From IMG/VR virus record IMGVR_UViG_3300030107_006201, positions 1-29,820 of that record: a stretch of 29,820 nt of DNA; one strand, written 5' to 3'. Positions 1 to 4,414 of this stretch are shown piece after piece. The position numbers were made by a program, and so were the translations under genes. Numbering within the stretch: position 1 is the stretch's first letter; each line of letters starts with the position of its first letter. The notes below the pieces were generated by a model. The model did no database searches and was not told the DNA's origin. It saw only the letters and a list, made by a program, of their open reading frames with translations. Origin of the DNA: a virus.

Positions 1-255
1 ATCAAAGAATTTATAAAGCCTATTTAAAACACTTCCACCAGTAATATTTCCAGTAGCATCTTTTTCTAAAGAACCTACTAGCCTCATATTCCTTGTGTAT
101 TCACTTCCTCTTTGTTTTACAGTAACATCAAGATATATATCAGCCCAATCATAATGCTCACTTTTATCTTCAATGTTTTCTAATTGCAGTTCACATATTC
201 CTAAGAATTTAGAACCACCACTATTTTCTTTTACTTCTGGTTTGAATATCGCCAT
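1..255 (-). CDS. Partial early protein of unknown function, possibly ssDNA-binding
   Basis: An open frame of 85 codons starts at the ATG complementary to 253-255 and runs off the left edge, so the C-terminus is missing. Its start overlaps the stop of the upstream ATPase gene as TAATG, so the two are translationally coupled. The visible part starts MAIFKPEVKE and has alternating hydrophobic and polar residues (for example YDWADIYLDVTVK around residues 36-47) consistent with a beta-rich fold. I do not recognise the family. Sak4-type ATPases in phages commonly sit beside single-strand DNA-binding proteins, so an SSB-like role is a guess from context only. Confidence 0.65.
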   Translation of the reverse strand, partial: MAIFKPEVKENSGGSKFLGICELQLENIEDKSEHYDWADIYLDVTVKQRGSEYTRNMRLVGSLEKDATGNITGGSVLNRLYKFFD

Positions 256-923
256 TACTTTTTCTCCTTGTATATTAGTTTCCAATTAAAATCAATCTCC
301 TTACCTTTAAGGTGATCGCATCTGCTACCTGCTTCTAAAGCTTCATTTGAATTAAATGTAACTTTAAGCTTATCTTTATCATCTCTAAAAACATATCCTA
401 TAGCATCACAATCAGCCATTATCATGTTTTTAAGTTTACCTGTTAAATCTAAGCTTTCAGGTTGTACTACGGCTTTGCTTTCTACGACTGCTTGAGCCCA
501 TTTCCTATGTCCTATAATGATAACATATGGAAATATCTCACGTAGGTATTTGATTGTATTTAGCACTTTCTCTCTTGCCATAGCAAAGCCTTTTCCAAAT
601 GCTAAATCTTGTATTGCTGATACATTTTCTTGCTTACAAACTGCTTTTTCAGCCCAGTCTGCTACCTTGTCTATTGTATCTATTGCTACATAATCAAATT
701 CATGTCCATCTGCAGCTTCTTCCAGTATTTTTAATAGATCTTGTCTATTATTAGCAGTTTCTATATAACCCTCTACCATATTTGCTCCTTGTTCAGTGTC
801 TATGATTAAGCAATTATCTAACTTACTTAACATAGTAGTTTTACCTACTTTTGGAGCACCATATAAGAGCATGGTTTTTGGATTATTAGAGACTACTTTC
901 CTCTTCACTTTTTTAAGTGCCAT
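255..923 (-). CDS. Sak4-like / AAA_24 phage ATPase (recombination)
   Basis: This 222-aa protein has a Walker A loop GAPKVGKTT at residues 22-30, a hydrophobic strand ending in acidic residues LIIDTE at 39-44, and a Walker B-like strand FDYVAIDTID at 77-86. This is the pattern of the RecA-like phage nucleotide-binding proteins (Pfam AAA_24), which include Sak4, a minimal RecA core linked to single-strand annealing and recombination during phage replication. The length fits the family. The start is supported by AAGGAG a few bases upstream of ATG. It lies downstream of the E1-like gene, separated by about 100 bases that contain a long hairpin. The family call is firm; the exact role (annealase or helicase loader) is inferred. 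Confidence 0.8.
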   Translation of the reverse strand: MALKKVKRKVVSNNPKTMLLYGAPKVGKTTMLSKLDNCLIIDTEQGANMVEGYIETANNRQDLLKILEEAADGHEFDYVAIDTIDKVADWAEKAVCKQENVSAIQDLAFGKGFAMAREKVLNTIKYLREIFPYVIIIGHRKWAQAVVESKAVVQPESLDLTGKLKNMIMADCDAIGYVFRDDKDKLKVTFNSNEALEAGSRCDHLKGKEIDFNWKLIYKEKK

Positions 924-1024: not shown

Positions 1025-1693
1025 TTAATATTTAAAGCAAGTGTTTTTTTCTAATGTCATAGTAGGAAAGTTAAATGACATCTCAGTTTCATAAGGCTGA
1101 TTCTTTAAAACCTTACGAACTGTATTTGCTATAAAACTTCCTGCCATATTAGAGCAATAACTTGTTGCTTTTCTATTGCATGGTTCTTCACTACCTTCAT
1201 CATCTGAATACCATGATTTCTCATACTTTTTTAAAGTTGGCTTCAAGAAAGTATATTGCTGGTAGTGTTCTGCACCCATTCTGCCATCTATTAATAAAAA
1301 TGGTTTAGAATGTTTGTATTTACTTAAGGCTTTAACTGCTTGCATTCTTACTTCCATGCTGTCAAAACCTAATATTATTATGTCATTATTATCTAAATAT
1401 ATATAGTTATCAAACATATTATTTAGAGTTGTAACTTCACAATTTGTTGTAATATCTAATATATGACACTTTAAACATTCGACTTTAGGATGCCCTAAGT
1501 CGTGTCCAGTATATTGAGATACTCCTAAATTAGCAGTTTCTACTTTATCCATATCATATAATGCAAATTCCTCTGCACCCATTCTTGCTAATTGCAATGC
1601 TGCGGAACTTCCTATTGCTCCGCAGCCAAGTATATGATACCTGAATTTATCTAAGTTATCTACTAATCCTGATGATCTTGTATTAATAGCCAT
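1025..1693 (-). CDS. ThiF/E1-like ubiquitin-activating enzyme
   Basis: This 222-aa protein has the E1/ThiF/MoeB Rossmann signature: ILGCGAIGSS at residues 21-30 (GxGxxG), YDMDKVE at 46-52 (ribose-binding Asp), NL at 55-56, Q60, and K70 after GHP. This matches the usual D-x-D-x-VE-x-x-NL...Q...G...K order. The Arg normally found in NLxRQ is absent (NLGVSQ). LLIDGRMG at 133-140 and PCNRKATSYC at 171-180 follow, so C172 is the best candidate for the thiol that accepts the Ubl. Such enzymes adenylate the C-terminal Gly of a ubiquitin-like protein. The start lies 11 bases inside the end of the JAB gene with GGGGGAG just upstream, giving tight coupling. The adjacent Ubl, E2-like and JAB genes favour Ubl activation over cofactor synthesis. 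Confidence 0.88.
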   Translation of the reverse strand: MAINTRSSGLVDNLDKFRYHILGCGAIGSSAALQLARMGAEEFALYDMDKVETANLGVSQYTGHDLGHPKVECLKCHILDITTNCEVTTLNNMFDNYIYLDNNDIIILGFDSMEVRMQAVKALSKYKHSKPFLLIDGRMGAEHYQQYTFLKPTLKKYEKSWYSDDEGSEEPCNRKATSYCSNMAGSFIANTVRKVLKNQPYETEMSFNFPTMTLEKNTCFKY

Positions 1694-2603
1694 ATCTCCC
1701 CCATCCTTGGTTATAGTTATGTGTATCTTCTATAGATTCTTTGTATGTTATATCTGTCCATTCGATTGCATCTCCTGCTAAGGACGACATCACTTGTTCA
1801 AGAATCTCATGCATTTGACCTTTAAATAGAATAGGCTTGAAAGGAAGTTTGTTTTCGGAGCATGTTTTAGAAAGCTTTTTAATCTTCTTTTTATACTCTT
1901 TTACTTTAATAGATCCATCTGAAATGCCATCAAATATCTTTTCTATTTCATCTATTAACTGTCCATATGCTGTCTCTATGTTTAAAGCAACTTCATTTTT
2001 TGCAAACAATCTTCCTTGAATTTGCCCCCATCCATTTCTACGATATCCTGTATAAGTATTTACATGACTAACTCTATCAGCACATAATTCCTCATACTTT
2101 TTCTTCATAGATTCTGTAATAGATATCTTAGGCTGTTTTCTCTCTATCGTAAGGTCTATATCATAATGCTCTTTTATTGGTAATCCACTTGCTTTCCATA
2201 AACTTACTCTGAATACATATTCTTCTCTTAAGTTTATTACCAATGCTAGTGAAAAACTTTCATTTTCCCAAGCATTTATCTCGTTTTCATCTGTTCCACT
2301 CCAGAATGCTCCCATGGTATGATGAGAATGCCACCAAACATATTTCATTCTTTTGTCTTTATATTTCATGGCATATTTCATCTTATATTCAGTTACAGCT
2401 TCACCATCTAGCTCTGTATTAGTTCCTGAATTTTCTTGCTTTAATATTTCTACATCACCTATCTTATATCTCCCATCTTTTTGAGGTATTGCAGTCATTA
2501 AGCCAGATATTTCATTTTTATCTTCATCATAGGCTAGTTTAGCCCATGCTTGTAGTTTATACCAGTCTTTTTCTGTTATGTAAAACATCTCTTTAAGTTC
2601 CAT
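1683..2603 (-). CDS. JAB/JAMM metalloprotease (deubiquitinase-like)
   Basis: This 306-aa protein has an intact JAMM zinc site: E31 (NEISGL), then WHSHHTMGAFWSGTD at 91-105, which gives H92-x-H94-x7-S102-x2-D105. This family cleaves isopeptide or peptide bonds after Gly-Gly of ubiquitin-like proteins. The JAB fold takes up roughly residues 1-150. The C-terminal half (about 160-306) is charged and partly helical, I do not recognise it, and it could bind substrate or partner. The start follows AAAGGAG, and those bases encode the last codons of the E2-like gene (stop complementary to 2605-2607), so translation is coupled. Because the Ubl already ends in Gly-Gly, removal of Ubl from targets is a likelier job than precursor maturation; this is inference. 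Confidence 0.88.
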   Translation of the reverse strand: MELKEMFYITEKDWYKLQAWAKLAYDEDKNEISGLMTAIPQKDGRYKIGDVEILKQENSGTNTELDGEAVTEYKMKYAMKYKDKRMKYVWWHSHHTMGAFWSGTDENEINAWENESFSLALVINLREEYVFRVSLWKASGLPIKEHYDIDLTIERKQPKISITESMKKKYEELCADRVSHVNTYTGYRRNGWGQIQGRLFAKNEVALNIETAYGQLIDEIEKIFDGISDGSIKVKEYKKKIKKLSKTCSENKLPFKPILFKGQMHEILEQVMSSLAGDAIEWTDITYKESIEDTHNYNQGWGRYGY

Positions 2604-2604
2604 A

Positions 2605-4083
2605 TTATCTCCTTTCAGGGTTTGTTGCCCATGCTTTCATTTGTTGTTTGATTTTATTTTCTTCTGTTATTTTTACTTCTTCATCAGATAATGGCGGCCA
2701 ATAATCATGATCCATTAAAAGATACTGATAGTCAATCCCACCTCTAATATCATCAGAATGATATCTTAGTTTAATATCGTGTAATATATAAAAGAGTAAT
2801 TTGTCTAAATTAGATCTACTTTTTACACCTAAACCAAAATAATCTAGATATGTATCTATTAATGGATAATTATAACTACCATTTGTAGCATTTGTTAATT
2901 CAGCCATATATCCTAAAACGCTTTCATCCATATAAGTTTGTTCTTCATCATAAGAATCATATCTTTCTACTAATTTATATGAATAACAGCTATCTCTAAA
3001 GTCGCAATTGGCTTGATTACATGCATTTTTATATTTATCTACATTTTCTACATCATCATATACATTAAAAACGCCACTTAGTCTACTTGAACAATCATCT
3101 GCTATAGAACTTATTACATTTTTATACTCATTACTATAAGACTCAGGAAATCCTATATGAAACATTTTGATATTATTATAAGGATTACTATGTTGAGTAT
3201 GGTAATATTGAGACCATGATAATAAATGATGTTGTAAGTTAGCAAAATTAATAGATTTAATACTGCTAGTTACATCATCTCTATAATTATCTAAGCATAC
3301 TGTGCCATATCCACCTGAACTTCTATATGGATGATAAGATATATAAGGATGCCTTATAGGTAAATTTGACAATAATTTTCCTTGATAAGTAACATCAGTT
3401 CTCATTCCATTTAATACATGTCTAAGACTTGTTTTTGCTATAATTCTTATTGAATCATTCTTATTTAAGTCTATTTTTTGTATTAATTGGGCATTTACTC
3501 TTCCATCGTATACCATCATTTCAATATCTTTTATTATAATTTCAAATAATAATTCAGTTCTTCTTATTGAATTACTATTAAGATCTATAAAACTATTGAT
3601 TGTTACTCTTTCATTTGAAATATCAGATGCTATTTCGCTTTGTTCTTGTACTTTATTAACAAATACATTCGCTATCTCTTTGAACTCGTCAACATTTACA
3701 TCTCTTACAACTCCTTGTTGCTTTAAACTATATTTCATCTGCTCAAGTTCATCTGTTATTGATAATATATGATTTAAATAATATGTATGTTCTTTTGTTC
3801 TTCTAATGAAATTATTAATACCTTTTGACTTTTTGTGCATTTCTAGTTTTCTTTCTACTAAATTTCTTACAATATCGTAAGTGCCAGGTTTCCAATTCCA
3901 TTTATTAGTTACATCTATCTCAGGTAATCCGAAATATGACAAATCATCATTTATTCTGTCTAATTTCTCAAAGAATGTGTCCTGAGGTCCTGTTGCTATA
4001 GAATTTGCTAGATCTTGGTTCATATTTTGTAAGATGCTTAATTCTTCAACATTTAATTCTTGATTCCCAATTATGAATTCCAT
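2605..4083 (-). CDS. E2-like protein (candidate Ubl-conjugating enzyme)
   Basis: I place the start at the ATG complementary to 4081-4083, which follows AAAGGAG, rather than 22 codons upstream; this gives 492 aa. Residues 243-265 hold an E2-like core: IRHPYIS (H245, P246, I248), a glycine stretch, then GTVCLD with C263 as the candidate catalytic cysteine. About 25 residues on, LLSWSQYYHTQHSNPYN (288-303) resembles the E2 segment ending in N-P. This is the HPxI...GxxCL order of E2 and of divergent prokaryotic E2-like proteins such as PRTRC protein B. The N-terminal 200 residues look helical. A second cysteine group, C355-x4-C360-x5-C366, could bind metal. The protein is far larger than a bare E2 domain (about 150 aa). 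Context between Ubl and JAB genes supports the call, but the fold needs a structure check. Confidence 0.68.
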   Translation of the reverse strand: MEFIIGNQELNVEELSILQNMNQDLANSIATGPQDTFFEKLDRINDDLSYFGLPEIDVTNKWNWKPGTYDIVRNLVERKLEMHKKSKGINNFIRRTKEHTYYLNHILSITDELEQMKYSLKQQGVVRDVNVDEFKEIANVFVNKVQEQSEIASDISNERVTINSFIDLNSNSIRRTELLFEIIIKDIEMMVYDGRVNAQLIQKIDLNKNDSIRIIAKTSLRHVLNGMRTDVTYQGKLLSNLPIRHPYISYHPYRSSGGYGTVCLDNYRDDVTSSIKSINFANLQHHLLSWSQYYHTQHSNPYNNIKMFHIGFPESYSNEYKNVISSIADDCSSRLSGVFNVYDDVENVDKYKNACNQANCDFRDSCYSYKLVERYDSYDEEQTYMDESVLGYMAELTNATNGSYNYPLIDTYLDYFGLGVKSRSNLDKLLFYILHDIKLRYHSDDIRGGIDYQYLLMDHDYWPPLSDEEVKITEENKIKQQMKAWATNPERR

Positions 4084-4101
4084 AATTTCTCCTTTCGTTG
4101 T

Positions 4102-4171
4102 ATTAAATGAGAGCCATAGCTTACCACTCCCTTGTGCGAACAGTCTCATGGGCTCCTGACTCTCATTTAAT
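4102..4171 (-). promoter_or_regulatory. Perfect 12-bp stem between the Ubl and E2-like genes
   Basis: ATTAAATGAGAG at 4102-4113 and CTCTCATTTAAT at 4160-4171 are exact inverted complements enclosing 46 bases. It lies between the Ubl stop (4190) and the E2-like ribosome binding site (near 4091). In the minus-strand RNA an alternative inner pairing, GAGCC(C)AT with ATGGCTC, competes for the CTC of the 3' arm, so two conformations are possible. No U-tract follows. It may set the ratio of Ubl to E2, for example by processing or attenuation. The structure is seen; the function is inferred. Confidence 0.6.
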
Positions 4172-4189
4172 GTTATTGTTTATCTATTA

Positions 4190-4414
4190 TTATCCGCCTA
4201 CTTTATTATTACTTGAGTATGCAACATAATCTCCGTCAGACAATTCAAAATCATTTTGTCTAACAGTTCCTCCCACATTTACATTAGCATCATTAGGTAT
4301 ATCTAATTCATTTCTTAGATCTCCTACTGTTCCTGATGTTGTTTCTCGGGATTGGAACTCTCCGTTATTTAATAGATTTATTACTTTGTTACTACTTTCG
4401 CTATTATTAGCCAT
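4190..4414 (-). CDS. Ubiquitin-like protein with C-terminal Gly-Gly
   Basis: The start is the ATG following AAAGGAG, giving a 74-aa protein (MANNSES...) rather than a longer upstream reading. The C-terminal residues are K71-V72-G73-G74 followed by TAA, so the protein already ends in the mature Gly-Gly tail. Residues 28-67 read like a MoaD/ThiS/PRTRC-C type beta-grasp: SGTVGDLRNELDIP (helix after strand 2), ANVNVGG, then FELSDGDYVAY, which is the L-x-DGD-x-V signature of the family. In E1 systems this tail is adenylated and passed to cysteine or lysine acceptors. It is the first gene of the cassette and has E2-like, JAB and E1-like neighbours. A sulfur-carrier role is possible but fits the E2 and JAB neighbours less well. 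Confidence 0.85.
   Translation of the reverse strand: MANNSESSNKVINLLNNGEFQSRETTSGTVGDLRNELDIPNDANVNVGGTVRQNDFELSDGDYVAYSSNNKVGG

Follow-up and report, generated by a model that had tools for sequence, protein, structure and literature searches.

Bil/Bub operons, ubiquitin-like defense operons of bacteria, contain ubiquitin-like protein (Ubl), E2, JAB and E1 parts. E1, E2 and JAB chemistry is also found in Cap2 and Cap3 of the cyclic oligonucleotide-based antiphage signaling system (CBASS), with Cap2 being a fused E2-E1 protein without an own Ubl. A further arrangement, the PRTRC cassette, is carried by plasmids with the gene order ParB-E-C(Ubl)-F-B(E2)-A(JAB)-ThiF, as read in loci including L126 and L128; these neighborhoods contain ParB, and one of them also ssb and a helicase. 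To our knowledge, no function or target has been demonstrated for cassettes of this type 6d or PRTRC kind. They were predicted in 2006, with the PRTRC cassette being the operon that Iyer, Burroughs and Aravind (2006, PMC1779556) termed type 6d. Here, a phage contig of 29,820 bases was analyzed (IMG/VR record IMGVR_UViG_3300030107_006201, positions 1 to 29,820; termed the window), whose plus strand encodes terminase, portal and major head protein, and whose minus strand carries adjacent genes for a Ubl, an E2-like protein, a JAB protease and an E1 between positions 1025 and 4414. We consider it likely that these four genes constitute a phage-specific, PRTRC-like cassette (type 6d kind) for Ubl conjugation and deconjugation, which belongs to the DNA-replication module.

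The four genes of the cassette

The four minus-strand reading frames were present where a preliminary description of the window had placed them, and the coupling proposed there was confirmed. The JAB gene (1683-2603) begins right after the stop codon of the E2-like gene (2605-4083), with its ribosome binding site located within the final E2 codons, and the genes for E1 (1025-1693) and JAB share an overlap of 11 bases. For the E2-like protein the ATG at 4083, preceded by the strong ribosome binding site aaaggag, was the best start, while an in-frame ATG at 4149 was less likely. The first gene (4190-4414) encodes a Ubl of 74 amino acids, which reads KVGG at its C-terminus and ends with Gly73-Gly74 (codons 4193-4198). 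The Pfam model ThiS matched the window Ubl with E = 0.016 and 5 of 24 Ubl relatives, the best of them with 2.5e-4. With these matches among its relatives, the protein is a predicted beta-grasp protein of the ThiS type with C-terminal Gly-Gly. A match of the Ubl profile to phosphoserine aminotransferase in the PDB (6e-4) consisted of two short pieces and was taken as chance. Gly-Gly was found in all 48 distinct Ubl sequences, forming the exact C-terminus in 33 and being followed by 1-11 extra residues in 15. Trimming would therefore be needed in these 15 Ubls, for which the JAB protein would be the obvious candidate. In one sub-clade (L092, L094-L099, L101-L105) every copy seen extends past Gly-Gly (GGIK, GGSK, GGC and others).

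The JAB protein (306 amino acids) carries an intact JAMM motif, consisting of E31 and H92-S-H94-x7-S102-G-T-D105 (HSHx7SGTD, codons 2289-2330), and these residues were intact in 60 of 60 distinct JAB sequences. The Pfam model Prok-JAB matched with 7.7e-5, just below the Pfam cut-off, and Rpn11 in the PDB with 0.0013. Using Pfam, the E1 (222 amino acids) was recognized as ThiF (E = 1.3e-22), and ThiF was also its closest model in NCBIfam. Its motifs are GCGAIG, D47, K70, D111 and Cys172 (codon 1178-1180). Both Cys172 and Cys180 were present in all 57 distinct E1s of the window group. As only Cys172, not Cys180, was retained in the 11 aligned E1s of the crAss-like and Flavobacterium phage type, the earlier choice of Cys172 as catalytic residue was confirmed. 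By its ThiF match and its residues the protein is a predicted E1 with adenylation domain and acceptor cysteine.

Conservation and selection among related contigs

Related loci were collected by scanning IMG/VR, with the E2-like protein yielding 11 loci, an E2 alignment 35 and a JAB alignment 76 distinct contigs; the four genes of each locus were then read with iterated profiles. In 76 of 76 contigs the order Ubl-E2-JAB-E1 was found on one strand, and 49 contained all four genes. With the exception of two doubtful contigs, the remainder lacked genes at contig ends, and a Ubl fragment was found in 4 of the truncated contigs on closer search. A single E1 copy per record was observed in 15 of the longer records. 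In two loci (L013:4024-4727 and L099:4164-4835) the E1 is broken into two reading frames, reflecting either a sequencing error or a real break. The ratios of nonsynonymous to synonymous substitution rates (dN/dS) in close pairs were 0.06-0.16 for Ubl, 0.04-0.10 for E1, 0.15-0.22 for JAB and 0.22-0.53 for E2; all four genes are under purifying selection. Loss of joint conservation was not seen in this search of phage contigs for the four-gene order. The claim that a phage carries the whole set of Ubl, E2, JAB and E1 is supported. Pfam matches, constant order and strand, invariant catalytic residues and purifying selection together make the cassette more than a chance assembly. Among 84,980 bacterial and archaeal genomes this version of the JAB family gave no match.

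Motifs and modeled fold of the E2-like protein

The E2-like protein (492 amino acids) holds HPYISYHPYRSSGGYGTVCLD, a motif of the HPYI...TVCLD type, which includes Cys263 (codon 3295-3297), a cysteine of the catalytic type, and PY(I) at residues 246-248. Cys263 and Tyr247 were each conserved in 60 of 60 distinct sequences and Pro246 in 59 of 60. No credible match was obtained in Pfam, NCBIfam, PADLOC, PHROGs or PDB sequences, and the assignment is therefore based on its motif, the fold model and the place of the gene. A full-length model built with 11 sequences had a predicted local distance difference test score (pLDDT) of 65 and no fold match, and a core model was used instead. This core (residues 124-330, positions 3094-3714 on the minus strand; 46 sequences) was modeled with a pLDDT of 90.4 and a predicted template modeling score of 0.86. 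It consists of a long first helix, a series of strands, the PYI motif, Cys263 and two helices. The first two ranks of its PDB fold matches were the ubiquitin E2 variant (UEV) domains of TSG101 and Vps23, with seven further UEVs in the top 50. The core model thus resembles UEV/UBC domains, as expected from the earlier E2 assignment, but the scores of these matches were weak, so that a UBC fold has support and no proof. In the viral fold library six close relatives were found, together with a 420-amino-acid protein (1.2e-4), which is the length of the E2-like protein of the Flavobacterium phage FpV4. A 435-amino-acid protein of the crAss-like phage cr128_1 was matched as well (E 0.059, probability 0.77). 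As the gene ahead of JAB in cr128_1 also encodes 435 amino acids, this match is most likely the gene at the equivalent E2 position.

Of the four proteins the E2-like one evolves fastest, chiefly beyond residue 305. Its best conserved stretch among 60 relatives is DVTNKWNWKPG (residues 57-67, positions 3883-3915), which lies N-terminally, outside the UBC-like core, and perhaps binds E1 or Ubl. Behind the core, residues 331, 355, 360 and 366 (positions 2986-3093) include a mostly kept C-x4-C-x5-C pattern, possibly a metal site, with Cys360 being the second invariant cysteine of the protein (60 of 60).

Another reading of the same proteins is a sulfur carrier system, in which the E1 charges the Ubl for thiocarboxylation, the sulfur is passed to a nucleotide, a DNA or RNA base or a small molecule, and the E2-like protein is the acceptor enzyme. 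The ThiS-like Ubl and the nearness of the E1 to ThiF among NCBIfam models are in line with this, as are the nucleotide-metabolism genes (ribonucleotide reductase, dUTPase) among the neighbors of crAss-like cassettes and the pairs of JAB with ThiS/MoaD known from sulfur pathways (Iyer 2006, PMC1779556). Nevertheless, we regard such a system as rather improbable, as the cassette contains no gene for a rhodanese, cysteine desulfurase or ThiG-like protein, and none of these was found among the family-matched adjacent genes in the window or in a 49-kb relative. Moreover, the E2-like protein, with its invariant cysteine in a modeled UEV/UBC-like core, was present wherever the contig reaches.

Comparison with PRTRC, CBASS and Bil/Bub systems

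The proposed kinship with PRTRC-type operons was supported by the common gene order, with Ubl-E2-JAB-E1 found on one strand in the window and the 76 contigs as in L126 and L128, and by homology of the E1 to PRTRC ThiF (hhalign 5.8e-10). The JAB proteins of both carry HSHx7S.TD, and the neighboring genes concern replicon maintenance in both cases. Differences became visible as well. The phage cassette lacks gene F between Ubl and E2 and is without ParB or protein E; the PRTRC F profile does not match the phage E2-like protein, and the next genes of the window are the Sak4-like gene and small reading frames. With 492 amino acids the phage E2 is also far longer than PRTRC-B with 240-275. The NCBIfam cut-offs were missed by both E1 (27.4 bits versus 144.75, TIGR03736) and JAB (15.2 versus 101.8, TIGR03735). 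In the E1 tree a single clade of PRTRC and phage E1s received a support of 76/48, which decides neither for nor against this grouping. The phage cassette is PRTRC-like, not a PRTRC member. On a Dyella plasmid (L131:3989-8242) genes for ssb and a DEAD/DEAH helicase come after the PRTRC cassette, which is a further replication neighborhood.

CBASS Cap2/Cap3 share E1, E2 and JAB chemistry with the phage cassette, and the window E1 is similar to the E1 portion of E1-E2 proteins of the Cap2 type (PADLOC, 4.5e-14). Unlike the fused Cap2, however, the window genes are separate and include a Ubl, and no cGAS-like CD-NTase or effector was recognized beside them. Similarity to Bil/Bub was weak (crAss-like E1 versus BilD 2.5e-5, PADLOC), and these are bacterial defense loci, whereas the window cassette has no defense setting.

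The resemblance to Cap2 raises a counter-defense role, in which the Ubl is put on host defense proteins or the JAB strips Ubl marks of CBASS, Bil or Bub. A fast-evolving E2-like protein, chiefly in its C-terminal part, is expected with a changing target, and defense proteins are among the possible targets as the E2 evolves fast. Still, this role appears unlikely to us, since the phage has its own Ubl, E1 and E2 and not a JAB alone, and since the cassette is a fixed neighbor of replication genes across whole lineages and not a variable accessory locus. Furthermore, by gene order the nearest bacterial systems are the plasmid PRTRC cassettes, for which we know of no defense role.

Related cassettes in crAss-like and Flavobacterium phages

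Using tblastn with the E1, 75 phage records were obtained, chiefly crAss-like and Flavobacterium phages; the crAss-like E2 gave 74 records of nearly equal make-up, and no matches in the viral-contig scan. In phiCrAss001 (gp79-gp76), DAC15, six more crAss-like genomes and two similar gut phages, JAB and an HSH...C E2-like protein were found upstream of an annotated ThiF. A Ubl-like N-terminal domain was present in most of these loci, with cr106_1 lacking a clear one. The Flavobacterium phage FpV4 has the same gene set, with a Ubl reading KSGG followed by a long tail. The cassettes of the crAss-like phages (Steigviridae) and of Flavobacterium Fipvunavirus share gene order, replication-module setting, E1 clade and JAB homology with that of the window, and the E2 core fold is similar to one crAss-like member. 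They differ in that their Ubl candidate forms the N-terminal portion of a larger protein and has KSGG/KSGA internally, and in the E2-like motif, which reads HSH...C.G.GPI.

Comparing profiles of the window group and the crAss/Flavobacterium group with hhalign, values of 1.8e-33 for E1 and 1.9e-10 for JAB were obtained. In E1 trees with a small sample of bacterial E1s, both groups formed one clade with a support of 99/97, apart from the sampled ThiF, MoeB, Cap2 and PRTRC proteins; an earlier tree, which included more long-branched rows, gave the same clade at 95/93. What the sequences show directly is the set of genes, its order, its conservation and the selection on it, together with the homologous E1 and JAB of the two phage groups. 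Shine-Dalgarno motifs preceded 15 of the 26 longer reading frames of the window, whereas in the loci of crAss-like and Flavobacterium phages only 11 of 143 had one. From this difference the host of the window phage probably lies outside the Bacteroidota, and the cassette would span phages of different hosts. Behind the labels thiamine biosynthesis protein and metalloprotease, given to gp79-gp76 of phiCrAss001 (L114) and in many crAss-like records, a likely Ubl cassette is hidden.

Replication setting and proposed mechanism

The cassette and the structural genes occupy opposite strands, and the cassette is grouped with replication genes. Next downstream of the E1 gene and outside the cassette, a Sak4-like ATPase of the AAA_24 family for annealing of single-stranded DNA is encoded (255-923, minus strand; Pfam AAA_24 2.1e-26, phrog_124 2.9e-33), and the same placing was found in L004 and L006-L014. 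The Sak4-like gene is kept with the cassette and marks the replication module. In the 49-kb relative the cassette adjoins both Sak4 and a DnaB-type helicase gene, and crAss-like cassettes sit between primase and uracil-DNA glycosylase genes. Given these neighbors, together with ParB and ssb/helicase beside PRTRC, the targets are most likely phage or host replication and recombination proteins, judged by genomic neighborhood only. The neighborhoods speak for a role in DNA replication or maintenance no less than for one in counter-defense.

This setting also bears on virion maturation. In this reading Ubl and JAB would help to assemble the head or tail, a role that has been proposed for the lambda tail proteins I and K. 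A Ubl-JAB pair known from the tail gene clusters of lambdoid phages (Iyer 2006, PMC1779556) speaks for it. However, the cassette, whose transcription runs away from the structural genes, is grouped with replication genes, contains E1 and E2, which are absent from the lambda tail cluster, has no NlpC/P60 domain match and includes no tail gene, so that we give this explanation very little credence. The purposes suggested in the preliminary description, blunting of host defense and remodeling of the phage's own particles, found no specific support, with the cassette residing in the replication module.

For the PRTRC-like conjugation cassette the following order of events is proposed. The JAB would trim the tail where residues follow the Gly-Gly of the Ubl. 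According to the ThiF fold, the invariant residues and the place of Cys172, the E1 would adenylate the C-terminal glycine and load the Ubl on Cys172, from which, judged by motif, fold model and gene order, it would be handed to Cys263 of the E2. The E2 would then join the Ubl to a lysine or another nucleophile on targets, which it would probably recognize by its fast-evolving C-terminal part. Finally, the JAMM motif and the Rpn11-like domain suggest that the JAB may take the Ubl off again.

We are aware of the fact that several observations weigh against such a cassette. Ubl conjugation by these proteins is a prediction from sequence and model. The position of the classical E2 histidine is Phe or Tyr in many members, the UEV matches of the E2 core were weak, with E 0.17 and a probability of 0.41, and its best folds, the UEV domains, are inactive E2 variants. 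Comparison of the phage E2-like protein with PRTRC-B was not significant (hhalign E 0.5), although the E2 of crAss-like phages has a C.G motif resembling that of protein B, and the phage Ubl had no significant profile match to PRTRC-C. Between the two phage groups hhalign was likewise not significant for E2 (0.085) or Ubl (0.007, 31 columns), and most crAss-like Ubl candidates carry KSGA or RSGA instead of GG at the matching place. Two contigs are doubtful as members: L056, with an E2-like frame of only 284 amino acids and no Ubl found, and L100, with 229 bases ahead of E2 and no convincing Ubl. In L056 (751-1605) the weakly similar 284-amino-acid frame is followed by intact JAB and E1 genes, and the E2 may be truncated, frameshifted or replaced.

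No earlier report of a phage Ubl conjugation cassette was found in the searchable literature, subscription papers and preprints left out, and neither ubiquitin nor ThiF appears in the main texts of Yutin 2021 and Shkoporov 2018. A layout of the 6d kind is a constant component of phage genomes, among them those of the culturable phiCrAss001, DAC15 and FpV4, and with such cultured carriers the targets of 6d-type tagging become directly testable by infection proteomics. The findings suggest that such cassettes belong with the replication and maintenance of mobile replicons and not with defense alone. Widespread phage genes called thiamine biosynthesis protein and metalloprotease would gain new labels. 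More tentatively, several lineages, among them the abundant crAss-like phages of the gut and a group that is uncultured and probably marine, might run their own self-contained Ubl pathway on replication proteins during infection, sharing ancestry with PRTRC and serving the replication of mobile replicons. In the 49-kb relative a spore photoproduct lyase-like gene (L120:6004-6864; Pfam SPL 1.3e-21) was found near the cassette in the replication module.

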